Assembly: GCF_000147715.2 (NCBI RefSeq)
Contig: NC_017934.1
Location: 1,860,001 to 1,924,000 of the forward strand
Source: Mesotoga prima MesG1.Ag.4.2
Lineage (GTDB): Bacteria; Thermotogota; Thermotogae; Petrotogales; Kosmotogaceae
DNA length: 64,000 nt
Direction: 5' to 3'
The position numbers were made by a program, and so were the translations under genes. Numbering within the stretch: the first letter of the stretch is position 1; each line of letters opens with the position of its first letter. The notes under the pieces are model-generated. The model saw only the letters and a list, made by a program, of their open reading frames with translations, made no database searches and was not told the DNA's origin. This document shows, piece by piece, positions 9,233-55,947 of the stretch.

Positions 9233-10461
9233 ACACAAATGCCGGCAATTTGCAGGCATTTTTCCTGTTTATTCATTAATAGGGACGAATGTACGGTTTT
9301 TCCTCACTGTACGGGAAAGTTTGGCAGAATTCCATAATTTCTAGATATGAGAAATGTGAGTAGTCTCGCTGGTTCTCTCGAGAGCAGTTTCAGGTTACCA
9401 ATTTCAGAGCGGGATGCTGTGGGCATTGACAAGAGACTGACAGCGATGTGTTCAGAAGCTTGCGGCGGACTATATACCTATGTTTTCACTCTCCATATCG
9501 AAAAGCATCAGTGCCATGCAACCTTGTGGCCCAATATTTAGCCTGTGAACCAATAATACAAAAAAACTCACTCATCATATTGTCCCTTGCCCTCGTGACT
9601 CCATTTTCTGCATTCAGTCAACCTAGGGATCAGGATACCAGGAGATAGACTCTTGTTGTTGAGGTCTCCCTGGTCCTCCGTGACCGCAGGCCCATCCTTC
9701 GAGCAGAGCCGCGCGACTCTGATGAAAACCACGTTGTTTGTCAACGGTCTACCGTCCTCCGAGAGGATCAAAACAAGATCCCGAAACAAGTTCGGGATGA
9801 CATTGTGAGGGGCTTCTTGAAGCCGCTGCTCGGATAATTTTTTTCAGTTGCAGTGAGCCCCTGAATTGATTGCCGGTTCTGTTCACGAGACCCCATACCC
9901 TGTAATCGATACCCCGTGCTCAACGTATCTGAACCTGTTTCAGCATCGATGGTCGTCCCAGCGAGCAGCGTCTCTTAGCGAGCGACAAGCGTCTCTCTTC
10001 AACTATGACCTGCTTAACGGACAGTTTTTGATTAAAATGTCCAGTATATAAAACACAATTTCATATTGTCGCTCTAGAGATCTTTTGATGAGGAATGTAA
10101 AGCTGTATTCTTCGCTCAGGATTTTTCCCTCTCGCATCCGGCTCTCCTTACCTCCAATTCTCGCTCTTGCTCATGGTCAAATCAGAAGCTAAGGAATTGA
10201 TTATAGGCTCTTACTGAACAAGGTTGCGCTTGGAATTGACAACTGTTCCGGTTCACTTGGTCTGGCCGAACTAAACATCCCAGCGACACTGAGGAATACG
10301 ACCCTTTCATGCAGCATTCTGAAAATGAAAGGGTGAGATTCTTTCAGCTGGTACACGTTCGAAAACTACTCTTAATAGAGAACACAGTGTAATGGTCTAT
10401 ATGCCGCATAAAAGCTTAATTGCAGCAAAAGAAACGCTTCACGAAGAAAGTGTAGAATAAA
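9233..10461. other. Intergenic region with a type I repeat element
   Basis: No gene is supported. A small stem (AAATGCC/GGCATTT, about 9238-9260) lies near the left end. A module reading GTCAACGGTCTACCG precedes the type I element at 9776-9948. The remainder up to the GntR gene shows nothing I recognise. Confidence 0.5.
9776..9948 (+). repeat. Type I palindrome-bounded repeat element, copy 1
   Basis: Left end is the palindrome with ATCCCGAA/TTCGGGAT arms. Right end is a diverged inverted relative (CTGAACCTGTTTCAG). The internal sequence matches the copies at 23843, 50931, 51221 and 52889 and has almost the same length. Confidence 0.75.
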
Positions 10462-10477: not shown

Positions 10478-10508
10478 AGATATCTGTGTGTGAATGCGAG
10501 GTGTCAAC

Positions 10509-11225
10509 ATGATACCTATCTATCTTAAAATCAGAAACTACATGATCAAGCAGATCGAAAAAGGCATACTTATCCCCGGTGACAGAATTCCGTCTGAAAG
10601 GGAGCTTGTTGATCTCTTCAAGGTAAGTCGCATGACTGTTAGACACGCCATCGATCAGCTGGTTAACGATGGAATCCTTGTCAGAATGGTAGGCAAGGGT
10701 ACTTACGTAAGCAGTGAGAAGTTTGCAACCGAGCTAAATGTTTTGAGAAGCTTCTCAGAGGAAATAATCTCTACCGGGCATCGCCCCTCAGCCAAATTGA
10801 TACGGATCGAGAGAGGTCAGGCTGGAAACTCAGTCACTTCTCTTCTAAGGATTGACAGCAGTCATGAGGTGATGAGAGTTGAAAGACTGAGGTTGGTTGA
10901 CGATCTAGAAATGGCGATTACTGTTTCGTACTTTCCTTTGTCAAGAGCATTTCCGGTAGATGAGATAGACTTCAGCGCGACTTCGATCTACAACCAAATT
11001 GAGTCCCTAGGCCTTCGAATAGAAAAGGCTACCGAAACGGTTACAGCTGAAGCAGCCGACAAAAGGACTGCGAACTTTCTGCGTGTGAAAGACAAAGCCC
11101 CCCTCCTGAAAATAACTAGGCTCACATTTATTTCGAACAACGTACCTATTGAATACATGGAGGGATTGTTCAGGCCAGACAGATATTTTATATCCCAAGA
11201 ACTCTATAGACAGGAAGTGAGATGA
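10509..11225 (+). CDS. GntR-family regulator, HutC/UTRA type
   Basis: A 238-residue cytoplasmic regulator. The N-terminal winged helix (about 1-68) shows IPSERELVDLFKVSRMTVRHA and the wing GKGTYVS. A UTRA ligand-binding domain follows (about 85-235), with VMRVERLRLVDDLEM and the closing PIEYMEGLFRPDRYFI. I place the start at the ATG at 10509, preceded by GAGGTG at 5 nt; an in-frame ATG at 10494 has no ribosome site. The stop overlaps the first BtpA gene by 4 nt (ATGA). HutC-type proteins usually bind sugars, sugar phosphates or small metabolites, so it should sense the substrate of the operon it heads. Confidence 0.92.
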   Translation: MIPIYLKIRNYMIKQIEKGILIPGDRIPSERELVDLFKVSRMTVRHAIDQLVNDGILVRMVGKGTYVSSEKFATELNVLRSFSEEIISTGHRPSAKLIRIERGQAGNSVTSLLRIDSSHEVMRVERLRLVDDLEMAITVSYFPLSRAFPVDEIDFSATSIYNQIESLGLRIEKATETVTAEAADKRTANFLRVKDKAPLLKITRLTFISNNVPIEYMEGLFRPDRYFISQELYRQEVR

Positions 11226-12046
11226 TGAAGATGTTTGAAGAAATGTTTGGAAAGAAGCTCCCAATAATCGGTGTAGTTCATCTGCAGCCACTGCCAGGTG
11301 CGCCGAGATATGAAGGAATGTCTATGAAAGAGATTACCAGGCTCGCTGTTGAAGAAGCCAAAACCATGGTGGAGAATGGCGTGGACGGCCTGATAATCGA
11401 AAACTTCCGCGACATGATGTTCAAAAAGAGAGTCGGTCCCGAGACCGTTGCATCTATGACCTATGTTGCTTCGGAAGTAGTCGCTAATCTCTCTGTTCCA
11501 ATAGGGCTCTGCGTTCTCCAATCCGATGCGATTTCTGCTCTTGCGATCGCGAAAGCAGTTGGGGGCAAGTTTATCAGGGTACCTTACTACACGGAGACAT
11601 ACATAGTTGATGCTGGAATGATGGAGAGTATTGCAGCCGATGCACTGAGATTCAGAAAGATGATCGAAGCCAGAGACGTAAAGATATTTGCAGATGTACA
11701 CATCAAGCACGGCTATTCGCTTTCACGCAGACCCATTGAGGAATCGGCCGAAGATGCCTTTGAACGAGGACTTGCCGATGCCGTTATTGTCACGGGGAAA
11801 AAGACCGGCGGCAAGACCAAACCAGAGGATGTAAAGGCGGTAAGAGATTACCTTCCAAAGCTTCCACTTATTGTGGGAAGCGGGGTGACTCCAGAAAGTC
11901 TTTCCGAGTACTTCCCACAACTTGGCGATGCTGTAATTGTTGGAACGAGCCTTAAGAAAGACGGTAAGACTGAAAGCCCTGTGGACCCCGAGAGAGTCAG
12001 GCAGTTTGCAAATCATATGGAGAAGTGCAGAAAGGAGCTTGATTGA
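11222..12046 (+). CDS. BtpA/SgcQ-family protein, copy 1
   Basis: A 274-residue predicted TIM-barrel protein of the BtpA/SgcQ family. Family features seen are PIIGVVHLQPLPGAP near the N-terminus, ENGVDGLIIENFRD, the central FADVHIKHGYSL and a phosphate-site-like end (LIVGSGVTPES, AVIVGTSLKKDG). The family takes its name from a cyanobacterial photosystem I biogenesis factor, a role that cannot apply here. In other bacteria, members sit in sugar-utilisation loci such as sgc. The glycine-rich C-terminal strands suggest a phosphorylated ligand. A nearly equally long paralogue follows directly with a 1-nt overlap, and a PfkB kinase and BMP importer come next. The reaction is not known to me. Confidence 0.85.
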   Translation: MMKMFEEMFGKKLPIIGVVHLQPLPGAPRYEGMSMKEITRLAVEEAKTMVENGVDGLIIENFRDMMFKKRVGPETVASMTYVASEVVANLSVPIGLCVLQSDAISALAIAKAVGGKFIRVPYYTETYIVDAGMMESIAADALRFRKMIEARDVKIFADVHIKHGYSLSRRPIEESAEDAFERGLADAVIVTGKKTGGKTKPEDVKAVRDYLPKLPLIVGSGVTPESLSEYFPQLGDAVIVGTSLKKDGKTESPVDPERVRQFANHMEKCRKELD

Positions 12047-12864
12047 TGACCACAATAACTGAGTTCAACCAGTTGTTTGGTACTTCGAAACCAATAATTG
12101 GGATGATTCATCTAAAGCCATTACCAGGCTCACCAGTTTATGATGGGGAGGGTTTAAGAAAAGTAATAGATCATGCGCTGGACGAAGCGGGAAAGCTCAT
12201 TGAAGGCGGAGTAGATGGCGTTCAAGTCGAGAATTACAACGATCCGTCTTACTTCCCGGATGTTGCCGCCCCCGAGACTGTTTCCTCGCTCTCCATTGTT
12301 GCACACGAAGTTCACAAAGCTTTTCCGGATACGCCTATGGGCATCTGTCTTCTTGCCGATCCAATAGCATCCATTGCTGTAGCGCATTCCTCCGGCGCGA
12401 AATTCGTGAGAGCGACCGTGTTCACCGAAGCATCTGTAGATGTTTCGGGCTTAGCAATAAGAAGACCTCATGAAATTCTTAGATACCGCAAATTCCTCGA
12501 TCCTTCCATAAGGATCTTTGCAGACGTTCATATCAAACATTCCGCGCCTCTTGCGATGAGACCGATTGAAGAATCCGCCTACGATGCCGCATATTTCCTG
12601 GCGGATTCTGTAATCATTAGTGGAAAGCACACTGGATTTGAGACGCCTCTCGAAGATCTGAAAAAGGTGCGAGGCGTACTTCCAAATTACCCGATTATGG
12701 TGGGTTCAGGAATGAACAAGGTTAACGCTGGAAAGATCTTCGAAGTAGCTTCAGGAGCTTTTGTTGGTTCCACTTTCAAGGTCGACGGTGATTCTTACAA
12801 GTCAGTGGATTCCGAGAGAGTCAAGGAGTTCATGAAGGTCATCAAGGAGATAAGAAAGCGATGA
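12046..12864 (+). CDS. BtpA/SgcQ-family protein, copy 2
   Basis: A 272-residue paralogue of the preceding gene, with matching blocks: PIIGMIHLKPLPGSP, GGVDGVQVENYND, FADVHIKHSAPL and PIMVGSGMNK. It differs around the segment after ENYND, where copy 1 has a charged stretch and this one has SYFPDVAAPETV. Distinct substrates or a heteromeric complex are both possible. The ATG overlaps the previous stop as TGATG, with AGGAG upstream; the TTG one codon earlier is less likely. The stop overlaps the kinase start by 4 nt. Two different BtpA proteins in one operon is notable. Function remains unknown. Confidence 0.85.
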   Translation: MTTITEFNQLFGTSKPIIGMIHLKPLPGSPVYDGEGLRKVIDHALDEAGKLIEGGVDGVQVENYNDPSYFPDVAAPETVSSLSIVAHEVHKAFPDTPMGICLLADPIASIAVAHSSGAKFVRATVFTEASVDVSGLAIRRPHEILRYRKFLDPSIRIFADVHIKHSAPLAMRPIEESAYDAAYFLADSVIISGKHTGFETPLEDLKKVRGVLPNYPIMVGSGMNKVNAGKIFEVASGAFVGSTFKVDGDSYKSVDSERVKEFMKVIKEIRKR

Positions 12865-13820
12865 GCAGATCCGTTCTTGTTCTGGGTGATGTAAACGTAG
12901 ATATAATCGGGAAGTTTGATGGGTTTCCCACACCGGGTAGCTGTGCCTACAGCGAGAAACCGGCTTTGCGACCCGGTGGCTCAGGACTGAACACTTATGT
13001 TGGATTGAGAAAGCTTGGGATCGATGCTGATTTTTTCACTATGATAGGAGAGGACATTTTTGGCGATTTCATAAAGGCCGAACTTTTGACACTTGGAATT
13101 GAATTCTCTCCTAAAATCTCGGAGTCGTATTCAACCGGTGTAGTGTTTTCTCTCTCTACAAACAACGAGCGGACCTTCTTCTCATTCAGAAGAGGTGCGG
13201 CCGATGTACATATAACTTACGAAGATCTTTCGGGAACCTCTCTGGATTCAGGTATATTGTATCTTACGGGTGTGTCTGTTGTAGAAGGTGAGGAGACTTT
13301 CGAGACATTTCTTAGAGTTGTTGAGGAAACCAAGTCTTCCGGCACGAAGATCTTCTTCGATCCCAACATAAGAAAGACCGATTTGGTTTCGATTTCGAGA
13401 ATAGAAAAGATAATTCCTTTCGTGGATGTCTTCCTTCCCGCTCAAGATGAGTTGAAAGCTCTATTTTCAAAGTCTGACAAGTTCAGGTTTTGCTCGGACT
13501 TGCTTTCAACTGGTATTTCTGACATCTGGATAAAGAGAGGAGCAAATGGTTGTTCTCTCTTTTCGAAGGATAGCTGTTTTGACTTTCCCGCTCCAAGAGT
13601 AACGGCTCTTGAATGCACGGGAGCAGGTGATGCCTTCAACGCAGCCGTTATCTGGGGTTATGTCAACAATCTTGAAGAGAAGGAGATTGGCATTTACGGA
13701 AATATTTACGCAGGGATCAGCACAGAAAGAATCGGTGCTGCTACATCTTATCCCTATAGAAAAGAGATGTTAGAAAGCAAGCACTATAAATCTATCAAAA
13801 CGGGGGTGAAAGTATCATGA
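12861..13820 (+). CDS. PfkB-family carbohydrate/nucleoside kinase
   Basis: A 319-residue ribokinase-superfamily kinase. The N-terminal signature is LGDVNVDIIGKF and the substrate-binding glycine motif is RPGGSGLNTYVGLRKLG. The C-terminal PfkB motif TGAGDAFNAA holds the catalytic aspartate. These enzymes phosphorylate the sugar hydroxyl of pentoses, hexoses or nucleosides with ATP. Its position between the BtpA pair and a BMP-type importer makes an imported nucleoside or pentose the most likely substrate. It overlaps its neighbours by 4 nt on each side, so the module is translationally coupled. Exact substrate specificity cannot be assigned. Confidence 0.9.
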   Translation: MSRSVLVLGDVNVDIIGKFDGFPTPGSCAYSEKPALRPGGSGLNTYVGLRKLGIDADFFTMIGEDIFGDFIKAELLTLGIEFSPKISESYSTGVVFSLSTNNERTFFSFRRGAADVHITYEDLSGTSLDSGILYLTGVSVVEGEETFETFLRVVEETKSSGTKIFFDPNIRKTDLVSISRIEKIIPFVDVFLPAQDELKALFSKSDKFRFCSDLLSTGISDIWIKRGANGCSLFSKDSCFDFPAPRVTALECTGAGDAFNAAVIWGYVNNLEEKEIGIYGNIYAGISTERIGAATSYPYRKEMLESKHYKSIKTGVKVS

Positions 13821-14803
13821 AACGAATGATTCTCGTTCTATTTCTACTGGGGATCGTTGCAACGGGTTTCGGCGCATTGAAGGTGGCCATTGTTGCAGGA
13901 GACGCAATCGGAGACCGTGGATTTACGGACATGGCTTACATTGGCATTCAAGAAGCAGAAAAGCAGTTCGATATTGAATACAAAGTATTCGAGTGCCATG
14001 TCGACCCTTCGAAGTATTTTGATTCTTTGAGAGCGGCAGCTATGAACTACGATCTAATCTTCGTAGATCCTGGCTACTTCTTTGACAAGGAGCTCGCGGA
14101 GGTAAGCGCAATGTTCCTGTCGAAGACCTTTGTCTATATCGACGGCGCATCGGATCTTCCAAACGTCGTTTCAGTTCCTTTCAAGCAGAATGAAGGAGCT
14201 TTCCTCGCTGGATGCCTTGCTGCGCTATTGACTGACAAGACTGAACTGTGCAAGATCAATTCCGAGAAGATAGTTGGATTTGTCGGCGGTTTCGATATGC
14301 CCGTAATCAGGGACTATCAGGTCGGTTACGAACATGGTGTCAGATATGTCGATCCAGAAGTCAAGGTCATTGCGAGATATGCCGGAGATCATTACGATCC
14401 AGCCCTTGGAAAAGAGACGGCCTATTCAGTATCTAAAGAAGGAGCCGATGTGATTTTCCAGGCCGCGGGCCCCACGGGTCTCGGAATTCTCGAGGCAGCT
14501 AAGGACTATGGCTTCTTTGCAATTGGCGTTGATACGGATCAGGGCTATCTTCAGCCAGGTTTCATAGTGTCTAGTATGATGAAAAAAGTTGACGTCGCAG
14601 TTCTGGATATCGTTAGAATGCAGGTTGAGAATAAGCTTGAAAAGGGTTCCCTCCATGTCTACGGTATTGCTAATGGCGGAGTGGGACTCGCGTATAACGA
14701 ATTCATGATGGATACAGTACCAGCGTCAGTCTACATAGAAATCAGAGAGATTCAGGAGAAGATCGCGAACGGAGAAATCGTAGTAGACTCATATCTCAAC
14801 TGA
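13817..14803 (+). CDS. BMP-family (PnrA-like) ABC importer binding protein
   Basis: A 328-residue basic membrane protein family binding protein. Residues 1-19 form a signal peptide (LVLFLLGIVATGFG); no lipobox cysteine is evident. Family landmarks are KVAIVAGDAIGDRGFTDMAY, the GAFLAGCLAALLT segment, VGFVGGFDMPVIRDYQVGYE and the C-terminal FAIGVDTDQGYL. Characterised members (PnrA, BmpA) bind nucleosides; others bind related compounds. Start overlaps the kinase stop by 4 nt. A strong hairpin follows its stop, then the ATPase and two permeases complete the importer. Confidence 0.92.
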   Translation: MKRMILVLFLLGIVATGFGALKVAIVAGDAIGDRGFTDMAYIGIQEAEKQFDIEYKVFECHVDPSKYFDSLRAAAMNYDLIFVDPGYFFDKELAEVSAMFLSKTFVYIDGASDLPNVVSVPFKQNEGAFLAGCLAALLTDKTELCKINSEKIVGFVGGFDMPVIRDYQVGYEHGVRYVDPEVKVIARYAGDHYDPALGKETAYSVSKEGADVIFQAAGPTGLGILEAAKDYGFFAIGVDTDQGYLQPGFIVSSMMKKVDVAVLDIVRMQVENKLEKGSLHVYGIANGGVGLAYNEFMMDTVPASVYIEIREIQEKIANGEIVVDSYLN

Positions 14804-14811
14804 TGTTTTTT

Positions 14812-14831
14812 GGAGCCCCTCCGGGGGCTCC
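14812..14831 (+). promoter_or_regulatory. Intercistronic hairpin after the BMP binding-protein gene
   Basis: GGAGCCCC pairs with GGGGCTCC over a 4-nt loop, 9 nt after the stop codon and about 20 nt before the ATPase start. It is followed by GTCTTCAAT, not a true T tract. It probably limits downstream expression or stabilises the upstream message. Confidence 0.75.
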
Positions 14832-14850
14832 GTCTTCAATATCTCGGGGG

Positions 14851-16386
14851 GTGTTACCAATTCTTGTCTGCAATAAAGTCTCGAAGACATACCCAAATGG
14901 CCTGGAAGCACTCAAAGAAGTGAGTTTCGATGTAAAAAGAGGCGAGATTCACGCGATCGTGGGAGAGAATGGCGCTGGAAAGTCGACTCTGATGAACATT
15001 CTATTTGGAATGTTCAAACCGACTTCGGGAGAAATAACGTTCAAGGACAAGCAGTTCTCGCCAAAACATCCCTCGGAAGCGATAGGCCTTGGCATAGGAA
15101 TGGTACACCAGCACTTCAAGCTCGTGCAGAGCATAACGGTTGCCGAGAATGTAGTGCTTGGTATGGAGAAACGCTTTCAGAACAGAATTGGAAAGATCAA
15201 CAACGCCGAGATGAACAGTTCGGTTTCTTCGTTGATTGAGAGGCTTAGAATGTCGATCTCTCCGGATGACAGAATACAGGACTTACCGATAAGTAAGAAG
15301 CAGCAGGTTGAGATTCTTAAGGTTCTCTATAGAGATACGGATTTCGTTATTCTTGATGAACCAACCGCAGTGCTAGCCCCGAACGAGGTGGATGACTTTC
15401 TTGAATTTGTGACTGGAATTAGGGACATGGGTAAGACGGTGGTTTTCATCTCTCATAGACTGGGAGAGGTCTTCGCTATTGCTGACCGAATAACGATTTT
15501 GAGAAGGGGCAAGGTCGTAGGTACTTTTGACAAGAAGGACGTGAACAGAGAGAGTGTGGCAAACATGATGATCGGAACAGCCAGTGATCTCTATGAACGA
15601 CCAGAAAACTTCGTGAGAGATGAAATCGTTTTGTCTGTGAAGCAGATTTCCGACGCATCGGGAATACTAAAGAATTTGAGCTTTGACCTCCACGAAGGGG
15701 AGGTCCTAGGTTTCGCAGGAGTTGGAGGAAATGGTCAGGAGGAGCTCTTTGAGGTGCTTGCAGGAAATCTGATGTTGTCCTCGGGAGAAATCTTACTAAA
15801 GGGATCTTCGATCGAATCACTAAATACGCTCGAAAGAAGAAAAGCAGGACTTGCCTATATCACCGACGATCGAATGAAGAAGGGGCTAGCGCCTGACAGA
15901 AGTATAGTCGAGAACAGCATTGCGGGCCACCATAAATCTGGAAGATTTGGGAAACTGGCGATAAATAGCTCGAAGGCAAACGCGTTCACCGAGTCAATCA
16001 TTGCCGATTACGACGTTAGAACAGGTAAGAATATTCGAACCCCTGTGAGGGCTTTGTCGGGGGGCAACATGCAGAAACTTCTCGTCGGACGCGAAATCGC
16101 ATATGATCCTGCCGTTCTTATTGCTTCTCAGCCCACAGCAGGAGTCGATGTGGCAGCGAGAAAGCTCATCCACGATTCGTTCAGGAGACTTTCAAAGAGT
16201 GGTTCCGGTATTATCTTGATCAGCGGTGATCTCGAGGAGATAATGGATCTTGCGAATAGAATTATTGTGTTATACCGCGGTAGAGCCGTTGCGGAGCTGG
16301 CATACCCTCATTACGATACGACGGAGATCAGTTATTACATGACGGGGATAAGGGGGTCGCAGAATGCAAGCTGCACGAACTCTTAG
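14851..16386 (+). CDS. BMP-type ABC importer, double ATPase
   Basis: A 511-residue ATPase with two fused nucleotide-binding domains. The first has Walker A GENGAGKST, a Q-loop at GMVHQHFKL and Walker B FVILDEPTAVL. The second is degenerate: FAGVGGNGQEEL at its Walker A position, then the signature LSGGNMQKLLVGREI and an altered Walker B (VLIASQPTAGVDV), as is usual for the RbsA/YufO group. I use the GTG at 14851 behind a G-rich ribosome site; the longer frame from 14803 would run through the hairpin. It energises the permeases at 16364-18299. Its 3' end overlaps the first permease by 23 nt. Confidence 0.92.
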   Translation: MLPILVCNKVSKTYPNGLEALKEVSFDVKRGEIHAIVGENGAGKSTLMNILFGMFKPTSGEITFKDKQFSPKHPSEAIGLGIGMVHQHFKLVQSITVAENVVLGMEKRFQNRIGKINNAEMNSSVSSLIERLRMSISPDDRIQDLPISKKQQVEILKVLYRDTDFVILDEPTAVLAPNEVDDFLEFVTGIRDMGKTVVFISHRLGEVFAIADRITILRRGKVVGTFDKKDVNRESVANMMIGTASDLYERPENFVRDEIVLSVKQISDASGILKNLSFDLHEGEVLGFAGVGGNGQEELFEVLAGNLMLSSGEILLKGSSIESLNTLERRKAGLAYITDDRMKKGLAPDRSIVENSIAGHHKSGRFGKLAINSSKANAFTESIIADYDVRTGKNIRTPVRALSGGNMQKLLVGREIAYDPAVLIASQPTAGVDVAARKLIHDSFRRLSKSGSGIILISGDLEEIMDLANRIIVLYRGRAVAELAYPHYDTTEISYYMTGIRGSQNASCTNS

Positions 16387-17398
16387 TCTAAGAAAGCTCC
16401 TTCTCTCGCTTCTTCTCGTAGTTTGTATCTTATCGGTTTGGGCACTGATTATATGGTTTGGCGGAGAGTCACCTTTCAAAGGATTCAGCTTTATTATTGA
16501 AGGTTCACTAGGCAACCACTATCAGCTTTTGTCTACTTTAAACAAAATGGTTCCATTGATTTTAGCCGCAGCCGCCGTTGCCGTTCCTGCATGGACCGGA
16601 ATGTGGAACATCGGTGGAGAGGGTCAGTTATTGTTGGGAGCATTCGGGGCTGCTCTAGTCGGTTTTTCTATAGATTTCGGAGCGGGTATCGTGAACATTG
16701 TCGTGGCCCTTTTGGTATCTGCTGCATTTGGTATGGCCTGGGCTGCGTGGCCTGCGATATTCAAGATCAAGTTGAGAATGGATGAGGTAGTTACTACTCT
16801 GATGGGGAACTACATCGCCGCTCAGTTGATAGCCTATTTGATCAACAAACCATTTAGAGACCCTCGATCACCTCTTGCCCAGACTCCCTATATAAAGTCG
16901 AATTATGTCATTCCATATTTGTTCGAAGGGTCACAGTTTTCCGCGACTTTTTTTATTGCTATAGGGATAGTTTTGGTTCTATTCGTATTCAGGAAGAAGT
17001 TCATCATGGGATATGAATTTGAAATCACTGGAAGCAACTCGGTTTTTGCAGAGTTGAGTGGAGTTAAGGTCAAGAAGATAAAGCTTCTGTCGATGCTCAT
17101 TGGAGGTGCTTTGGCAGGTCTAGCCGGTGGTCTTCTGGTCCTGGGAATGACACAAAGGGTTATGCAAAGTTTTCCACCGGGATACGGATTTACTGGTCTC
17201 CTGATTTGTCTACTTGCATTCAATGATCCACTGATCATTATTGGGATTGCCTTTCTCTTCTCTGTACTTCAAACCGGAAGTGTGAATCTACAGTTGTTCT
17301 CGTCGGTTCCGGCTGAGATTAGCGGTGTTCTTCAAGCGGTTATGGTTTTATTTGTAGCTGCATTCAAGACCTTCATTGTTGGACGGGGGGATAATTAG
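16364..17398 (+). CDS. BMP-type ABC importer permease 1
   Basis: A 344-residue integral membrane protein of the branched-chain/ribose permease superfamily, YufP/NupP-like. About nine hydrophobic segments are visible, beginning at residues 10-30. The motif WTGMWNIGGEGQLLLGAFGA and the cytoplasmic loop region EFEITGSNSVFAELSGVKV are typical. It forms the pore with the following permease. It overlaps the ATPase gene by 23 nt, showing tight coupling. Confidence 0.92.
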   Translation: MQAARTLSLRKLLLSLLLVVCILSVWALIIWFGGESPFKGFSFIIEGSLGNHYQLLSTLNKMVPLILAAAAVAVPAWTGMWNIGGEGQLLLGAFGAALVGFSIDFGAGIVNIVVALLVSAAFGMAWAAWPAIFKIKLRMDEVVTTLMGNYIAAQLIAYLINKPFRDPRSPLAQTPYIKSNYVIPYLFEGSQFSATFFIAIGIVLVLFVFRKKFIMGYEFEITGSNSVFAELSGVKVKKIKLLSMLIGGALAGLAGGLLVLGMTQRVMQSFPPGYGFTGLLICLLAFNDPLIIIGIAFLFSVLQTGSVNLQLFSSVPAEISGVLQAVMVLFVAAFKTFIVGRGDN

Positions 17399-17399
17399 A

Positions 17400-18299
17400 A
17401 TGGACATGGAATTGATCACTACACTATTTCGAACATCAATCCGAATGGCGACTCCAATTCTGCTTGCATCGTTAGGAGGGGCACTAACTTATCATGCAGG
17501 TATAATCAACGTGGCTATGGAAGGACTCATGCTGATTAGCGCCTTCTTCTCCGTAGTGTTTTCATATCTTACAGGGAATGCTTTTTACGGCATAATTGCC
17601 GGAATGATGGCTTCCATTCTAATATCATTGCTGTACTCAGTTTTTGTAAGTTTCTTGAAAGCAAACAACTTCGCAATCGGTTTTGCAATAAACATATTGG
17701 TGAGTTCACTCACTTTATTCCTTATGAGAATCATGTTTAAGGGAGAAAATGCATTCAACTCTCCAGATATAGCGCCAATTCCTGAACTCAAACTCATAAC
17801 TGGAAACTACTTTCTAGACAACTACATTCTGAATTTCAGTATACTCACTTATCTTTCAATTCTGATTGCTTTTGTCTTGGCATTCATAGTCTACAAGACC
17901 TCCTTTGGGCTCAGGCTTAGGGTTTGTGGAGAGATGCCTCAGGCCCTTACAACAGCAGGTGTGAAGGTGGGGTTTGTTCAACTGTGTTCCAGCGTTTTGT
18001 GTGGAGCTCTCTGTGGACTTGCGGGGGCACAGCTTTCGCTATACAACGTAAGGATGTTCTCCCGCGAGATGACGGGCGGGAGAGGTTTTGTAGCACTTGC
18101 CGCGATTCTAATTTCGGGGGGAAAACCGAAGAGGATACTTGTCATCTCTCTGCTCTTTGGTGTTTTCGATGCTCTTTCTGTCAAGCTGCAAGGCGAGAAG
18201 GTCGCGCCTCAGTTCGCTCTAATGCTGCCTTATGTGATGAGTGTAGTCGTTCTGCTGTTGTTTCATCTGAAGTCCAGAAAGGGACTGAAGAACGCCTGA
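17400..18299 (+). CDS. BMP-type ABC importer permease 2
   Basis: A 299-residue membrane permease, YufQ/NupQ-like. It has the characteristic GGALTYHAGIINVAMEG near residue 25 and the coupling-loop segment GLRLRVCGEMPQALTTAGVKV. I start it at the ATG at 17400, one base after the preceding stop, with GGGGGG upstream; an in-frame ATG at 17376 lies inside the previous gene. It is the last gene of the operon. Confidence 0.92.
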   Translation: MDMELITTLFRTSIRMATPILLASLGGALTYHAGIINVAMEGLMLISAFFSVVFSYLTGNAFYGIIAGMMASILISLLYSVFVSFLKANNFAIGFAINILVSSLTLFLMRIMFKGENAFNSPDIAPIPELKLITGNYFLDNYILNFSILTYLSILIAFVLAFIVYKTSFGLRLRVCGEMPQALTTAGVKVGFVQLCSSVLCGALCGLAGAQLSLYNVRMFSREMTGGRGFVALAAILISGGKPKRILVISLLFGVFDALSVKLQGEKVAPQFALMLPYVMSVVVLLLFHLKSRKGLKNA

Positions 18300-21345: not shown

Positions 21346-21905
21346 CTCATTATCCTCCACAATCTGAATTAGGAGATGAGAATGCTGCTTAGTCTGAAAA
21401 GTGAGTGGTTCTCTAACAAACATCTCCTTATAGATTTTAGAACAGTATCGGCCGATTCAGGCTCTTCTGGCCAGAGTGTTCTTTGCTGATTCCTTGGAGA
21501 AGGAGTTAAGATACACGTGTTCCTACGATAAGATCAGCCGAGAAAGAGCATTATAGAGAGTTTGCTGCGCTAACGAGAGACGAGAAATGGAGAAGCCAGT
21601 CTTCTGGCGCAGGCCATTCAAAAGGCGATAATCATCGCTGCCAGTGAAGGCTTCGCCTTCGCCAGTACCACTTCGCGGGAGAAGAGCCGCTGCACGCTTA
21701 AAAGCGGAGAACCCGCTGAACGCTGTGAAGAGCCGGTTCTTCGATAAGATCAAAAAACTAAAGAGGTCAGAGGTATGAGGGTAGACGTATGAAGATCAAG
21801 ATCAAACATCACATACCAACATCATGAACTATTATCAGTATCTTGTGTTCCGTAGCTCTTTTCGAACCTGCAACCACCTACCTGCAACCCCGATCGGTTC
21901 AAAAC
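21346..21905. other. Intergenic region with repeat module
   Basis: Holds a copy of a roughly 70-bp module (21621-21693) with an inner GAAGGC/GCCTTC stem, also present near 25518 and 38674. The rest shows no gene. The group II intron begins at its right end. Confidence 0.55.
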
Positions 21906-23841
21906 ATCGAGTAGGAGAGGGGCGGAGCCCCTCGTCCTCTCACAGAACCGTGCGTACGGGCCGCGTACACGGCTCATGGATCAAGTATCGGAAATTTCGA
22001 CAGGGGATGATGGTATTTTGTCATATCGACTAGGTTCATCTCTTCAAAGAACCTGTTGGGGATGGCGTAATTGGCTGCTTTTGAGTGAGAAGATCGCCAT
22101 TTGTTCATTCTCATGTTGACTTTCTCTTTCCATCCGGTCCTTCTGAGAACTCTGTTCAGTTTCTTAGTTGTCTTCCACTGGTGTAGTATGATGGCTCTTA
22201 GCCTTCTCCTTATCCAGCTCAGAAGTCCCCTCAAAATGGATTGGAAATCCACTATCCTGAAATAGCTGGCGAATCCCCTCAACAGTGGATTGAGCTGTTT
22301 CACTATCTCCTTTACCGGCCTGCTCTGATTCCTTCTTGTAAGTTTCCTGACCTTTTCCTTGAATCTCTTCAATCTGGATTTCTCTATCCCCACTCTCTCG
22401 CCTTTTATTTCAAAGCCAAGAAAGTGAAATCCATCTTCAAGTGTTGTGATTCTCGTCTTGTTCCTGTTGACTTTGAGCTTCATGTCAATCTCCAGTATGT
22501 TTATCGCGATTGCCAGAAACTCTCGGGCTTCTTCCTGGGTTTTCGAGAAGATCAGTATGTCGTCTGCGTATCTGACTATCCTTATTCCTCTGGCTTTCAT
22601 CTTCTGATCGAATTCGTTCAGATAGATGTTAGCCAGCAGCGGGCTTATTACTCCTCCCTGTGGACTGCCAGTCTCTGTTTCCTTCCAGACTCCATCTTCC
22701 ATTACTCCGCTCTTCAGTATTGCCCGTATGAGTTTGAGTATCTTTCCATCACTCACTCTCTCGGCTACGGAGTCTATTATCTTCTCATGATCCAGAGTGT
22801 CGAAACATTCACTGAGGTCAAGTTCCACTACATTACACAGTCCGTATTTGGATGCAAAGGCTTTCGCCTTCTCCACTGCCTGCCAGGCATTTCTTCCCTT
22901 TCTGTAACCGTAACTGGAGGGATGGAATCCTTCCTCGAATATCGGTTCGAGTACCTCCTTAAGAGATTGCTGTACAACCCTGTCCCTTACGGCAGGTATT
23001 CTCAATTGCCTCGTTTTACCGTCGGCTTTCGGGATCTCTACCCCCCTGAGTGACATGGGTTTGTATTCGCCTCTCTTGATTTCTCCGGATAGTCTCTCGA
23101 TTTCTTCGGGAAGTTTCTCTGCGAATATCTCTACGCTTACTCCGTCTATCCCAGGGGCTCCTCTGTTGGATTTTACCCTGCCATAGGCTTCTAAAAGGTT
23201 CTTCTCCAAATAGACTTTGTCGATTAGACTGTAATACTTCATCTCTTTCTCCTGTATGCTCTCTTCCAACGGTTGTAGTCTCAGATGTTATTGCGACAAC
23301 TAATGACTGGCTTCTCTACCCTTTCGGGAATATGTACCTTGTCTTTAACTGTCTAACCTGAATCTCTTCACTGTCTTCCGATCACATTTCTTCGATCCTT
23401 CCCCCCTTCGCAAGTGATGGAGCCTTTCGACTTCCCCATCACCCCCTTGGCTTTTAGCCAAGGTCCCTTCCCCTTTCGGAGAGGTTCTTCACTACTACGG
23501 GTTCATCTGCCATCCTCCTGAGCTTTCCGTTAACTTGGATCACCTCCTTGCTAACGGTTACCCCTTTCGGACTCATGAGGACTTCCCCGGGTAAGATACA
23601 CCACTTTCATCCGAATCCTGCCATCCAAACCTTTACAGCTGGAGTCAGGGCTTTCCCTTATCTGGCAGGGTTACCCTACTGTAACGGCCATCCCTGGTTC
23701 ACTTTCGTTCAGTTCCGGACTTTGCCTCGGGCTTCCTTCAGATTCACCGTTACCAGTGACACCCTTGCCTCTGGCTAATGCTTCTTTGACTCCCCGCATT
23801 CGGGTCTTTCACCCTATAGTTGTGTATCATGCCGGGCGCAC
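21906..23841 (-). mobile_element. Group IIC intron
   Basis: Complete-looking bacterial group II intron of about 1.94 kb. On the minus strand the 5' end reads GTGCGCCCGGCATG, followed by the TATAGGGTGAAAGACCCGAA region typical of class C introns. The reverse transcriptase is encoded within. Domain V is visible just after the ORF stop (GAGCCGTG...CACGGTTC, about 21940-21970), then a domain VI hairpin, ending near CTACTCGAT at 21906. The 5' exon ends 2 nt after the dispersed palindrome hairpin, as expected for class C introns, which home to hairpins. Confidence 0.88.
21974..23269 (-). CDS. ltrA: Group II intron reverse transcriptase/maturase
   Basis: A 431-residue intron-encoded protein. Reverse transcriptase blocks are seen in order: NRGAPGIDGVSVEIF, RQLRIPAVRDRVVQ, SSYGYRKGRNAWQAV, TGSPQGGVISPLLANIYL and the catalytic RYADDILIF. 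A maturase/thumb domain follows (PLLRGFASYFRI). No C-terminal HNH endonuclease is present and the length is typical for class C introns, which use hairpin targets and nick-independent retrohoming. It splices and mobilises the surrounding RNA. The frame is intact, so the element may be active. Confidence 0.93.
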   Translation of the reverse strand: MEESIQEKEMKYYSLIDKVYLEKNLLEAYGRVKSNRGAPGIDGVSVEIFAEKLPEEIERLSGEIKRGEYKPMSLRGVEIPKADGKTRQLRIPAVRDRVVQQSLKEVLEPIFEEGFHPSSYGYRKGRNAWQAVEKAKAFASKYGLCNVVELDLSECFDTLDHEKIIDSVAERVSDGKILKLIRAILKSGVMEDGVWKETETGSPQGGVISPLLANIYLNEFDQKMKARGIRIVRYADDILIFSKTQEEAREFLAIAINILEIDMKLKVNRNKTRITTLEDGFHFLGFEIKGERVGIEKSRLKRFKEKVRKLTRRNQSRPVKEIVKQLNPLLRGFASYFRIVDFQSILRGLLSWIRRRLRAIILHQWKTTKKLNRVLRRTGWKEKVNMRMNKWRSSHSKAANYAIPNRFFEEMNLVDMTKYHHPLSKFPILDP

Positions 23842-23842
23842 C

Positions 23843-24014
23843 AGATCCCGAAACAAGTTCGGGATGACAATGTGAGGGACTTCCCAAACGCGCTGCCCGA
23901 ATAACTTTCTCAATTACAGAAAAACCCTGAATCTATGAGCCTTTTCCGTTCGCGGGACTCCATACCTTGTAATCGATACTCCGTGCTCGGCGTCATGAAC
24001 TTGTTTCAGCATCT
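23843..24014 (+). repeat. Type I palindrome-bounded repeat element, copy 2
   Basis: The left palindrome starts 2 bp from the group IIC intron 5' end. The right end reads GTCATGAACTTGTTTCAGC then ATCT, with the 3-nt left stem arm lost. Length 172 bp. Confidence 0.8.
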
Positions 24015-50540: not shown

Positions 50541-50930
50541 CATTGCCTCCCACACATCTGCCGTGCAAAATTCTTTGCTCTTCTTCAACGATACAGAAAT
50601 TAGAAGCGCTTGCAAACAAACAGAGAGTGACTTGAAAATTGTTCGATTGCATAATTTATTACATGATTACACAAGGTTATTTCATATGATTGAAAGCTAT
50701 GCCACACTCACCAAGCAATTTCATGCCATCGTTTACCGAGGTTTGACGTCGGTGGTCAGAAGTAGGAAGAGCAAGAGAAACTGGTTCGCCGAGAAAAGCC
50801 ACTTCACGCTTGAGAGTACACGCTGTACGCTGATGAAGACCACGCTGTCCGTCAACGGTCCACCGTCCCCGCCGAGAATCGCGGTTCCTCGTTCCGACGC
50901 TACGCGTCCAGGCTCTTCGTTCTTGGAATT

Positions 50931-51103
50931 AATCTCGAAACAAGTTCGGGATGACAGAGTAAGGGACTTCCAAAAGCCGATGTCGGGGTAGCTTTCTCAA
51001 TTACAGAAAAACCCTAAACTGATGGCCGATTCTGTTCACGAGACCCCATACCCTGTAATCGAAACCTCGTTCGCGGCGTCATGCTGAACTTGTTTCAGCA
51101 TCT
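50931..51103 (+). repeat. Type I palindrome-bounded repeat element, copy 3
   Basis: Its left palindrome is diverged (AATCTCGAAAC in place of GATCCCGAAAC). The right end is fully formed: GTCAT, arms GCTGAA/TTCAGC, then ATCT. Length 173 bp. Confidence 0.8.
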
Positions 51104-51220
51104 CTATCCTAAGAACCGCTGTACGCTCATGAAAAGCACGTTGCCCGTCAACGGTCTACCGTCCCCGCCAAGAATACGGGTTCTTCGACGGTACATGTCC
51201 GGGTTCTTCGTTCTTGGAAC

Positions 51221-51390
51221 AGATCCCGAAACAAGTTCGGGATGACAGAGTAAGGGACTTCCGAAAGCCGATGTCGGGATGGCTTCCTCAGTTGCAGCAA
51301 AACCTTGAATTGTAAGCCAGTTCTGTTCACAAGACCCATACCCTGTAATCGATACCCCGTTCTCGGCGTCATGAACTTGATTCAGAATCT
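51221..51390 (+). repeat. Type I palindrome-bounded repeat element, copy 4
   Basis: Left palindrome intact; the right end reads GTCATGAACTTGATTCAGA then ATCT, having lost the 3-nt left stem arm. Length 170 bp. Confidence 0.8.
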
Positions 51391-51617
51391 CGCTCTTTCC
51401 AGCGTTCAGCGTTTCTTAGCAAGCGGGAAGCGGCTCTTCTCGATGAACGGAGAACCGCTCAACGGTCGACTAGTTTCTCTTGAACTTTCGAACGCCCAGC
51501 CACGGTTTCTCCAAAGCCCAGATCCTGAACAGGAGCACTTCACTGACAAAATGAGTTCGTCTGATGAGATTACTTCAATTTGCTTGCTCTTTTTTTGGTT
51601 TTTGCCTCCTGGTGTGT

Positions 51618-52779: not shown

Positions 52780-52888
52780 TGGTGATCCCGGACTGTAAGC
52801 TTCAAAGAAAGCGTAAGTATAAATTTGATTTGTTGGAAAAGCGATAAGAAAGGGCAGCGTACTTAATTTAATAGTGAGGTCGACGCCC

Positions 52889-53061
52889 AGATCCCGAAAC
52901 AAGTTCGGGATGACAATTTGAGGGACTTCCCAAAACCGCTGTCTGGATAACTACCTCATTTGCAGCAAAACCTTGAATTGGTAAGCCAGTTCTGTTCACA
53001 AGGCCCCGATCCTGTAATCGAAACCCCTTTCTCGGCGTCATCTGAACTTGTTTCAGCATCT
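52889..53061 (+). repeat. Type I palindrome-bounded repeat element, copy 5
   Basis: Intact left palindrome; right end GTCAT-CTGAACTTGTTTCAG-CATCT. Length 173 bp. Confidence 0.8.
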
Positions 53062-53293
53062 CTATCCTAAGAATCGCTGTACGCTTAAGAGTAAAAACCC
53101 GCTGAGCGCTGTAAAGAGCAACCGTTGGCCCTTCGTCCAAAACCATGAACCCGTCCTTCGAAAGCGCATGAAGAACAGATCCTCTCTCTGGAACGAAGAA
53201 CAGGTTTTCTTCGGAGAACGGAGAACCATTAAACGGCAGACCAGTTTCATTTGCTTTTCCAACCTCCGACCCCGACGCGGTCTTCAAAAGTGC

Positions 53294-53379: not shown

Positions 53380-53513
53380 CGTTTTTTCACTTTGATCAGG
53401 AATGAAGAACAGGTTTTCTTCGGAGAACGGAGAACCATTAAACGGCGAACCGGTTTCACTTAGCTCTTTCCAACCACCAACCTGCTACCCCCAGCCACGG
53501 TTTCCCGAAGAGC

Positions 53514-53655
53514 AGATCCCGAAACAAGTTCGGGATGACAGAGTAAGGGACTTCCGAAAGCCGATATCGAGATAACTTCCTCAGTTACAGTGAAACCCTG
53601 AATTGGTGAGCCGGTTTTGTTCACGAAACCCCAGACTCGAAACCCGAGCCCCGTT
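53514..53655 (+). repeat. Type I element with missing right end
   Basis: The left palindrome and the body match the other copies until about CCCCGTTTTG. The right palindrome is absent, and the second group II intron starts about 20 bp further on. Confidence 0.6.
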
Positions 53656-53674
53656 TTGTTAGGTCTTTTTACTG

Positions 53675-55545
53675 GTGAGTAGCCCAGGGGGATTTCACCC
53701 CCAGGCTCTCTCAGAACCGGACTTGAATCTCTCGATTCATCCGGCTCCCATTATCCAGCCGTATAGAATATCCCCATTGTCCAGTGTACAAATAGACGAG
53801 GCTCCCTGCGAGCAAGAGTTTCTAGCCATTTACCCGCTTTTGTACGACCTCTCCTTTTCTTGTACTTGTTTCTTACCCACTGAACTAAGGCTTTGTTTAG
53901 CCGACTCAGTACTGTATACATCTCAAATCTGCGAAAGTGTCCATAGTAGTTTATCCAACCTCTTATTACCGGGTTGATTCTTTCTGAGAGTTCTTCAATA
54001 CTCAGGTATGACTTGGTTTGAAGTCTCATTCTCCGGATCTTCTGTCTCATCGCCTTCTTTGCCTGTTCACTCACTGCAGGGGTGAAGCTGTAGAAGATCC
54101 TCCCGTTTCTGGCTTTGCAGCTACGGACTCTGAAGGTGTATCCTAGAAAGTCAAAGCTTGTATTTGGATACTCGCCCTTCCTTTTATCGTCTTTGCAGTA
54201 GACAATACGGGTCTTCTCTGGATGAAGCTTTAGTTTGCATTCTTCCATTCTTTCTTTGAGACTTTCAAGAAGAAGCCGGGCTTCCTCCAGAGTTCTACAG
54301 TGTATCACTCCATCATCTGCGTATCTGGCAAAGGGCTTATCCGGATGAGTTCTCTCCATCCACTTGTCGAAGGCGTAATGCATGAAGAGGTTAGCCAGTA
54401 CAGGGCTTATTACCCCTCCCTGTGGCGTTCCCTTGCTCCTCTCTTCGACTCTTCCATTCGCTTGCATAAAGGGTGCTTTCAGCCATCTCTCTATGTAGAG
54501 TATTAGCCATGGAATCTTCACATGTTTCTTGACTGCCCTCATTAGTAGTTCATGGTCTATGTTGTCGAACAGTCCTTTAATGTCGAATTCCAGTACCCAG
54601 TCATACTGCCAGCATCTCTGCCTCGTTACTTCAAGGGCATCTATCGCTGACTTTCCCTCCCTGTATCCGTAGGAGTCCTTATGGAAGTATGGATCTACCA
54701 GGGGATTTAGATAGATTTTGGCTACCATCTGGGCTACTCTGTCCCCCACTGTGGGGATTCCCAGTACTCTCTTTCCTCCACTCTTCTTTTCTATCTCTAT
54801 AGCTTTTACTGGAGGTGGAAAGTAACTGCCCGAGGTCATTCGATTCCAAATCTTGTAGAGATTGTTGTCAAGATCGGCTTCGAACTCTTCCAGGCTTACC
54901 TCGTCTATTCCTTCTGCCCCTCTGTTCTCTTTCACTTTCTTGAATGCTTCCAGTACTACTTTCTTGGGGATTTCATACGACCTCATCTTGTCTGTTGGCT
55001 CCTTCCTTGTCTCTGTTCACAGTTCCTCCCTTTCGGTTGTCTGCACAGAGTTGGTTGACTAACCTACAAAACTGGATAACACAGTCCCTTCGCTCCACTC
55101 CCATTACAGGAGCTTCATCACTACTACGGACTGTTCCGCCCCTGAATCTGGCATCGGTACTTTCACCCTCGTGGGTTCTTCCACTTGCGGCTTTTCCCTT
55201 AACATCCAGATCCAGGTTCCCAAGTTCCTAATCGAAGCCTGTACCAGGGTCACGCCACCTATATGCCGGTCACCATCTGGACAGTAAGCAGGTTTCCTCC
55301 AGACTTATCCCGGGATAGTTGCACCTCCCGGTTTAGATGACACTAGTAGTTCTTACGACACGTTCACGGTGATTCACTTGTATTCGTCTCCTCTGGTACT
55401 CACCTGACGGGATCACTGTCCCGCCTTTTCCCGTAACGTTCACTACCATGGCTCTTTACCACAGCAGCTTACGGCGGTTTGAAGCCTCCACCTGCATGGC
55501 GGCTTCGAGGGGCCCTCCCTCATCTTCAATTAAGCATGGCTAGAA
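53675..55545 (-). mobile_element. Group II intron (5' end not resolved)
   Basis: On the minus strand, domain V is clear just after the reverse transcriptase stop (GAGCCGGATGAATCG...CAAGTCCGGTTC). A GC-rich domain VI hairpin (CTGGGGG/CCCCCTGG type) follows, ending near GGGCTACTCAC at 53675. Upstream of the ORF, structured sequence extends to about 55545. The expected GTGYG start is not visible; the region reads CTAGCCATGC instead, so the 5' tip may be altered or lost. Flanking DNA is dispersed repeat. Confidence 0.75.
53751..54986 (-). CDS. ltrA: Group II intron reverse transcriptase/maturase
   Basis: A 411-residue intron-encoded protein of a different lineage from the one at 21974. Blocks: NRGAEGIDEVSLEEFEADL, GIPTVGDRVAQMVAKIYL, KDSYGYREGKSAIDAL, KGTPQGGVISPVLANLFMHY and catalytic RYADDGVIHC. 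A thumb/maturase part follows (INPVIRGWINYYGHF). It ends shortly after LFVHWTMGIFY with no endonuclease domain. The frame is intact. Confidence 0.92.
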   Translation of the reverse strand: MRSYEIPKKVVLEAFKKVKENRGAEGIDEVSLEEFEADLDNNLYKIWNRMTSGSYFPPPVKAIEIEKKSGGKRVLGIPTVGDRVAQMVAKIYLNPLVDPYFHKDSYGYREGKSAIDALEVTRQRCWQYDWVLEFDIKGLFDNIDHELLMRAVKKHVKIPWLILYIERWLKAPFMQANGRVEERSKGTPQGGVISPVLANLFMHYAFDKWMERTHPDKPFARYADDGVIHCRTLEEARLLLESLKERMEECKLKLHPEKTRIVYCKDDKRKGEYPNTSFDFLGYTFRVRSCKARNGRIFYSFTPAVSEQAKKAMRQKIRRMRLQTKSYLSIEELSERINPVIRGWINYYGHFRRFEMYTVLSRLNKALVQWVRNKYKKRRGRTKAGKWLETLARREPRLFVHWTMGIFYTAG

Positions 55546-55947
55546 GTTTCCTTCTTCGCCTTCTTGGCACACTACAACTTGGAACTTACATCTTGCAACT
55601 GATCCTTTGCTCTTTCCAACCCCCAACCCGCAACCCCCGACCACGGTTTTTCAAGAGCTCAGATCCTGAACAAGAGCACTTCAGTGACAAAATAAGTTCG
55701 TTCTGATCAGATCACTTTAATTTGCATGCTCTTTTTCTTTGGTTTTTGCCTCCTGGCACGTAAGCGCCAGCATCACTTCCCCGGATGATCTTCCGGGCAT
55801 CACTTCCTCGCGCCAGCGAGCCTCACTTCCTGCCGGAGGCAGCATCACTTCTAATCTTGATGCCACTAACCTGCTACCCCCAGCCACGGTCTTCGTACGA
55901 CGACGGCGATATGCTATCATTTTTACACCACATTCAGGGATGGTGAA
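55546..55947. other. Intergenic repeat region
   Basis: Starts with TTCGCCTTCTTGGCACAC, shared with 25549, and includes the inverted GGAAGTGATGC array at 55765-55870. No gene apart from the start of the acetyltransferase. Confidence 0.6.
55765..55870 (-). repeat. Inverted GGAAGTGATGC-type repeat array, second copy
   Basis: Nearly identical to 51618-51725, with the same order of units and the same closing sequence (ATCTTGATGCCAC). Confidence 0.6.

Follow-up and report, generated by a model that had tools for sequence, protein, structure and literature searches.

A candidate riboside operon with two BtpA paralogues in Mesotoga prima

What use does a bacterium make of two paralogous BtpA-family proteins encoded side by side, in one operon with a PfkB-type kinase and an importer? 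The question is raised by a stretch of 64 000 nucleotides from Mesotoga prima MesG1.Ag.4.2 (contig NC_017934.1, positions 1 860 001 to 1 924 000 of the forward strand; hereafter the window, whose own numbering is used unless stated otherwise). The original prediction had placed eight genes at 10509-18299, and all eight were found there, on the plus strand, by open reading frame (ORF) calls and by Pfam and NCBIfam profile searches, the Pfam scores being far above the cut-offs. The answer towards which we lean, if only slightly, is that they constitute a catabolic operon under GntR/UTRA control for a non-standard riboside, which would be imported, phosphorylated by the PfkB kinase and processed by both BtpA proteins.

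Recurrence and layout of the operon

BtpA1 (11222-12046) and BtpA2 (12043-12864, with a TTG start) match the profile PF03437 (cut-off 30 bits) with 268.8 and 222.7 bits, over profile positions 2-254 and 2-253 respectively, and are 41% identical. That they are two distinct paralogues, as had been proposed, is supported by a tree of 83 BtpA proteins, where each belongs to a monophyletic clade of its own (pair1 for BtpA1, with supports of 100/99, and pair2 for BtpA2, with 100/100); to judge from this tree, they are separate old lineages. The two genes stand side by side, in this order, in 16 of the loci that were read, which belong to Thermotogota, Bacillota, Chloroflexota and Caldisericota; a PfkB gene accompanies them in all 14 loci for which the contig is long enough, and a GntR-type regulator gene lies in, next to or near the modules read. 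The original prediction had made its fate depend on conservation of this neighbourhood; the operon order recurs in four phyla, and the arrangement is not due to chance. Pairwise distances of BtpA1 and of BtpA2 correlate (r = 0.89). Identity to the window proteins goes from 51 to 91% for BtpA1 and BtpA2 and from 27 to 71% for the kinase, and the BtpA pair, being the better conserved, thus forms the core of the module. The importer is of the BMP type in Thermotogota and Chloroflexota and of the RbsB type in Caldisericota. Chloroflexota loci on long contigs carry the importer and a phosphotriesterase-family (phosphotriesterase/lactonase-type) gene, followed by PfkB; there is an additional CN-hydrolase gene in a Thermotoga-like genome and an additional uridine-phosphorylase-like gene in Caldisericota. 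A wider search through 400 Chloroflexota and 398 Bacillota genomes brought no BtpA2 orthologue beyond the genomes already known; the module is therefore rare and has probably spread horizontally. In a Clostridiaceae twin module (locus L020), BtpA1 is broken by an in-frame TAG (1220-2089 of that locus), which makes it either a pseudogene or the victim of a sequencing error.

The first gene of the operon encodes the GntR/UTRA-family regulator (10509-11225; Pfam GntR + UTRA, 110.7 bits). Its mechanical ORF begins at 10494 but, since a Shine-Dalgarno-like AGGTG stands before the ATG at 10509, the latter is the start, as had been claimed. The BtpA pair is followed by the gene of a PfkB/ribokinase-superfamily sugar or nucleoside kinase (12861-13820) and by those of a BMP/PnrA-type substrate-binding protein (13817-14803; Pfam Bmp, 198.4 bits), an RbsA-like double ATP-binding importer protein (14803-16386; two ABC_tran stretches, 161.4 bits; closest NCBIfam model below its cut-off) and two permeases (16364-17398 and 17376-18299; BPD_transp_2, 125 and 123 bits). 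The overlaps are of 4 bp at the GntR/BtpA1, BtpA1/BtpA2, BtpA2/PfkB and PfkB/BMP junctions and of 23 bp at the ATPase/permease 1 and permease 1/permease 2 junctions; with nearly all junctions overlapping, the proposal of one expression unit is supported. The BMP/ATPase junction overlaps, by 1 bp, only if the ATPase starts at 14803. This start is uncertain, because the first codons from there cross a GC hairpin and because in relatives the ATPase start lies about 20-50 bp past the BMP stop. The hairpin itself is strong (the GGAGCCCC TCCG GGGGCTCC region, 14812-14833), and it is perhaps a stabiliser of the mRNA segment encoding the binding protein. About 1.3 kb upstream of the operon contain no sizeable gene, and a search for a riboswitch that would name the ligand gave no Rfam match near the operon or in the upstream region. 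One copy of a repeat of about 175 bp, the copies of which are about 80-88% identical (9778-9947, 23840-24014, 50821-51391 and 52887-53062), lies in this intergenic region, likewise without an Rfam match.

Kinase linkage, branches and predicted fold of BtpA

The papers searched gave neither a reaction nor a sugar-enzyme role for the BtpA family, nor a link with ribose or kinases. The genomes suggest such a link. In Thermotogota, a PfkB or FGGY kinase gene is found within 6 kb of BtpA in 35 out of 38 loci, and two of the three others stop at a contig edge; in Bacillota and Chloroflexota, sampled by an even draw of genomes, a sugar kinase gene lies within the same distance in 24 of 36 loci. The chance expectation is about 9%, as calculated from the 23 kinase genes (about 14 PfkB and 9 FGGY) of this 2.98-Mb genome. 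In GC-rich loci, several BtpA and kinase genes escaped the ORF caller or were given a wrong start, and for Pseudomonadota the deposited annotation was therefore used instead. In E. coli, the gene of the homologue SgcQ is located beside a phosphotransferase system (PTS). BtpA is thus paired with three unrelated phosphorylating systems (PfkB, FGGY and PTS), which argues that it acts on their phosphorylated product.

Four residues, H20, N61, R119 and K245 (BtpA1 numbering), are present together in 108 out of 119 BtpA proteins. Others follow the kinase: PfkB-linked proteins have E or Q at position 60, nearly always D at 158, and K or R at 162 in 60 cases out of 61; those linked to FGGY or PTS have C, G or S at 60, mostly N at 158, and E or a gap at 162, with K or R in none of 31. 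Position 162 is a putative active-site position. The FGGY/PTS-linked proteins form one clade and the kinase label changes only twice on the tree, so that the K/E difference reflects one old split rather than repeated evolution, and the Fisher p value of the association does not stand for independent events. Both window paralogues, with E60, D158 and K162, fall outside the FGGY/PTS clade and belong to the PfkB-linked 'K-type' subfamily; BtpA1 has in addition H160 and H163, and BtpA2 has the same E/D/H/K/H set as well as the invariant H/N/R/K set. A BtpA protein of Pelolinea (Chloroflexota; L144, 3323-4132) is 73% identical to E. coli SgcQ, possibly through horizontal transfer of an sgc-type gene. 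With 235.5 and 196.7 bits, both window proteins remain below the equivalog cut-off (400) of NF045918, the cyanobacterial BtpA of photosystem I biogenesis, and a role in photosystem I or with glutamyl-tRNA reductase is not transferable to them.

AlphaFold (AF2) models of BtpA1 and BtpA2 were obtained from shallow alignments (14 and 15 rows), with pLDDT of 89 and 86 and pTM of 0.90 and 0.87, respectively. Foldseek relates the former to ribulose-phosphate 3-epimerase (RPE), phosphoribosylanthranilate isomerase (PRAI) and 2-keto-3-deoxy-6-phosphogluconate (KDPG) aldolase, and the latter to the alpha subunit of tryptophan synthase (TrpA), RPE and KDPG aldolase, the top matches having E-values down to 8e-10 and TMq of about 0.55-0.6. 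RPE, PRAI, KDPG aldolase and TrpA are all phosphate-binding TIM barrels, and C-terminal glycine motifs of the phosphate-binding type, GSG and GT/GS, are conserved in BtpA. On these models, both proteins are ribulose-phosphate-binding-type TIM barrels with predicted phosphate binding, although a modelled fold does not by itself give the reaction. A search by sequence for a solved BtpA structure gave none, the best match (E = 0.03) being a TrpA-type protein. Together with the kinase and PTS linkage, this predicted fold supports the proposal that BtpA acts on a phosphorylated substrate.

The genome also has a lone BtpA gene, located within a ribose operon (LacI-RbsD-BtpA-RbsK-RbsA-RbsC-RbsB) between RbsD and RbsK (L015, 3913-10631; about 2237900-2244600 of the contig). 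Here RbsD (132.5 bits for a cut-off of 93) and RbsK (305.3 bits for the TIGR02152 cut-off of 299.65) both pass as NCBIfam equivalogs. Such an operon is found in ten genomes in all, in one of which RbsD and BtpA have exchanged positions. In the Thermotogota loci L128 and L135, BtpA is accompanied by genes for BMP-type permeases, an isochorismatase-family (RutB/biuret-hydrolase-like) protein, PfkB and a uridine-phosphorylase-like protein, the last being also encoded in the BtpA operon of L026. The ribose-operon copies and the gene sets of L128 and L135 place the PfkB-linked branch in ribose and riboside metabolism. That BtpA could be the sole ribose-5-phosphate isomerase was rejected, an RpiB-family gene being present in 17 out of 17 Kosmotogaceae genomes.

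Ligand, route and competing explanations

The PDB relatives of the window binding protein are Lbp and three nucleoside receptors, BmpD, PnrA and BmpA. The base is stacked by two Phe in BmpA, whose Asp98, Asp225 and Lys242 are positioned for contact with the ribose (PMC13325309). From this description and an alignment with BmpA and BmpD, the ribose contacts (D109, D239 and K256) and the first stacking Phe (F36) are conserved in the window protein, but the second stacking Phe is replaced by His192 and the base-side Asn by Thr37; F214, considered as the second stacking residue, was ruled out, since the alignment puts the site at 192. His192 together with Thr or Ile at 37 is found in 11 out of 11 twin-module binding proteins, from two phyla. 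Four further BMP proteins encoded in this genome lack the His, as do three encoded near other BtpA genes, and in L189, a BMP protein from this genome, the whole pocket is canonical (F/N/D/F/D/K). The importer had been predicted to be of the nucleoside type: family and ribose contacts agree, but with one stacking Phe and the base-side Asn substituted in all the twin modules, the binding protein is no ordinary nucleoside receptor. Its residues point to a riboside with a non-canonical base-side group. Vitamin B6 transport was rejected, as the scores for the putative BMP-type transporter models NF047927-30 (47.1, 396.7, 151.2 and 138.8 bits) miss the equivalog cut-offs of 400-670.

In the route that we favour, the binding protein and the RbsA-type ABC importer would take up a compound made of a ribose-like sugar and a base-like group other than a canonical nucleobase, and the PfkB kinase would phosphorylate the sugar. 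BtpA1 and BtpA2, as predicted phosphate-gripping TIM barrels, would then process the phosphorylated compound, and the sugar would enter the pentose phosphate pools. The analysis establishes the genes, their order and conservation, the kinase linkage, the predicted fold and the pocket residues; the riboside ligand, the site of phosphorylation, the enzymatic nature of both BtpA proteins and the order in which they act are what we infer; their exact reactions are a guess, the best being that one releases or rearranges the aglycone and the other isomerises or epimerises the pentose phosphate. A number of points weigh against this route. The operon contains no glycosidase, phosphorylase, isomerase or aldolase of known type, so that the downstream part is not closed. 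The kinase, with intact GG-N and GAGDAF motifs (residues 36-53 and 247-266) and 138.4 bits for PF00294 (cut-off 25.8), is below all NCBIfam equivalog cut-offs, including that of ribokinase (TIGR02152, 115.9 bits for 299.65), and thus matches no specific equivalog. With His192 as the second stacking residue, the ligand could be a sugar derivative devoid of an aromatic base. Deletion of E. coli sgcC or sgcX, operon partners of sgcQ, gave no growth phenotype (PMC13343008); in the same study, sgc genes were induced on some nitrogen-containing carbon sources. Finally, the BtpA protein of cyanobacteria is reported to bind glutamyl-tRNA reductase and to act as its stabiliser (Skotnicova 2024, cited in PMC11449065), a role which may be non-catalytic.

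The alternative that survives best is that BtpA1 and BtpA2 are the catalytic and the supporting subunit of one heteromeric enzyme instead of two enzymes in series. It touches the last step only and is compatible with the riboside route; we consider it possible, although unlikely. The invariable adjacency and order of the two genes, their translational coupling and their correlated divergence would all be expected of such partners, but both proteins keep the four invariant residues and the E/D/H/K/H set, and two BtpA genes of other subclades are found side by side or close together in another Mesotoga genome (L063) and in Sagittula (L006), a situation which suits two reactions equally well. For two hypothetical genes that separate the BtpA genes of Sagittula, neither a family nor a structure match was obtained.

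Another possibility is that the ligands are ordinary purine or pyrimidine nucleosides; PfkB would then be a nucleoside kinase, and the BtpA proteins would act as nucleotide glycosidases or take part in salvage. The BMP family with its receptors of known structure, the retained ribose contacts and the uridine-phosphorylase-like genes of some BtpA operons would fit, but the modified pocket of all eleven twin-module proteins would not, the less so as L189 offers the canonical set in the same genome; we therefore hold this to be rather improbable. Quite improbable, in our opinion, is a free pentose or sugar acid, handled by a plain sugar kinase and an epimerase or aldolase route. It would account for the BtpA genes inside ribose operons and for those located beside FGGY, SDR and CUT1 sugar importer genes, for the sugar-phosphate enzymes among the top fold matches and for the phosphotriesterase/lactonase-type gene of the Chloroflexota modules; yet BmpA, of the same family, depends on its aromatic platform and fails to bind ribose by itself (PMC13325309), and the window protein has kept F36 and the polar set. 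That BtpA has no catalytic role and acts as a chaperone or stabiliser of some partner, the function proposed for its cyanobacterial counterpart, is very improbable given its invariant polar residues of catalytic type, its link with three unrelated phosphorylating systems and the failure of both paralogues to reach the cyanobacterial cut-off.

A bolder, joint proposal extends the riboside route, and we put it forward tentatively, as somewhat short of probable: the PfkB-linked branch would consist of enzymes acting on pentose phosphates or riboside phosphates, a class not recognised so far and spread over bacteria and haloarchaea, and, at the same time, the twin module would be a complete, undescribed route for one particular non-canonical riboside, marked by a binding protein with His192 and present in several phyla.

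Genomic setting and known systems

A direct tandem duplication of about 76-86 kb and about 99.9% identity (contig positions 1761475-1849975 and 1848007-1926279) contains the whole window in its second copy, and for this reason the assembly has the twin-BtpA operon twice. The first copy is longer by about 10 kb, located near 1795375-1809246 and flanked by mobile elements. Two group II introns are located on the minus strand of the window, at 21886-23877 and at about 53401-55674 (Rfam RF00029, RF02001 and RF01999). Copies of the former bound and join the duplication, which suggests that it arose by recombination between them; the duplication may also be an assembly artefact.

Among the systems with which the operon can be compared, the sgc operon of E. 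coli likewise has a BtpA-family protein in an operon for sugar uptake and phosphorylation, but it relies on a PTS instead of an ABC importer and PfkB, has an RPE-like SgcE and an M42 protein, SgcX, and its SgcQ (N158, E162) is of the other BtpA branch. The ribose operon rbsDACBK also combines an RbsA-type importer with a ribokinase-superfamily kinase, and in this lineage it even carries a BtpA gene; the window operon differs by the lack of RbsD, by BMP instead of RbsB, by its two BtpA and by a kinase below the ribokinase cut-off. With the PnrA, BmpD and BmpA importers it shares the binding-protein, ATPase and permease families, the ribose contacts and one stacking Phe, but it has His192 and Thr/Ile for the base-side Asn, and its transport genes are joined with those of a kinase and a BtpA pair. 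In the PsuK-PsuG pathway for pseudouridine, too, a PfkB kinase comes first and a further enzyme then works on the nucleotide; in the window operon there is no member of the PsuG family, and the reported matches of its PfkB do not include the pseudouridine kinase model. A last group consists of L109-L126 and similar alphaproteobacterial and Pantoea plasmid loci, where genes for phosphotriesterase (PTE), GATase1_like, PfkB, BtpA and either TenA or an M20 N-carbamoylase-like hydrolase recur, and for which our literature search found no study. They resemble the window operon by a sugar-type ABC importer, PfkB and a K-type BtpA, but usually have one BtpA only, of another subclade, as well as the extra PTE, GATase1_like, TenA and M20 genes, and no BMP.

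The BtpA/SgcQ family, for which no reaction came out of the literature, extends from archaea to cyanobacteria and E. coli. Its candidate substrates are now reduced, by the link with kinases, the K/E split and the copies in ribose operons, to a short, testable list, i.e. the products of the neighbouring kinases, and the ligand of the twin-module binding protein can be read directly, so that work on the pathway could begin at its first step. As compared with the systems above, an operon made of an ABC importer, a kinase and a regulator is of a known kind; what is new is the pair of putative enzymes without an assigned reaction and the distinct signature of the binding protein.

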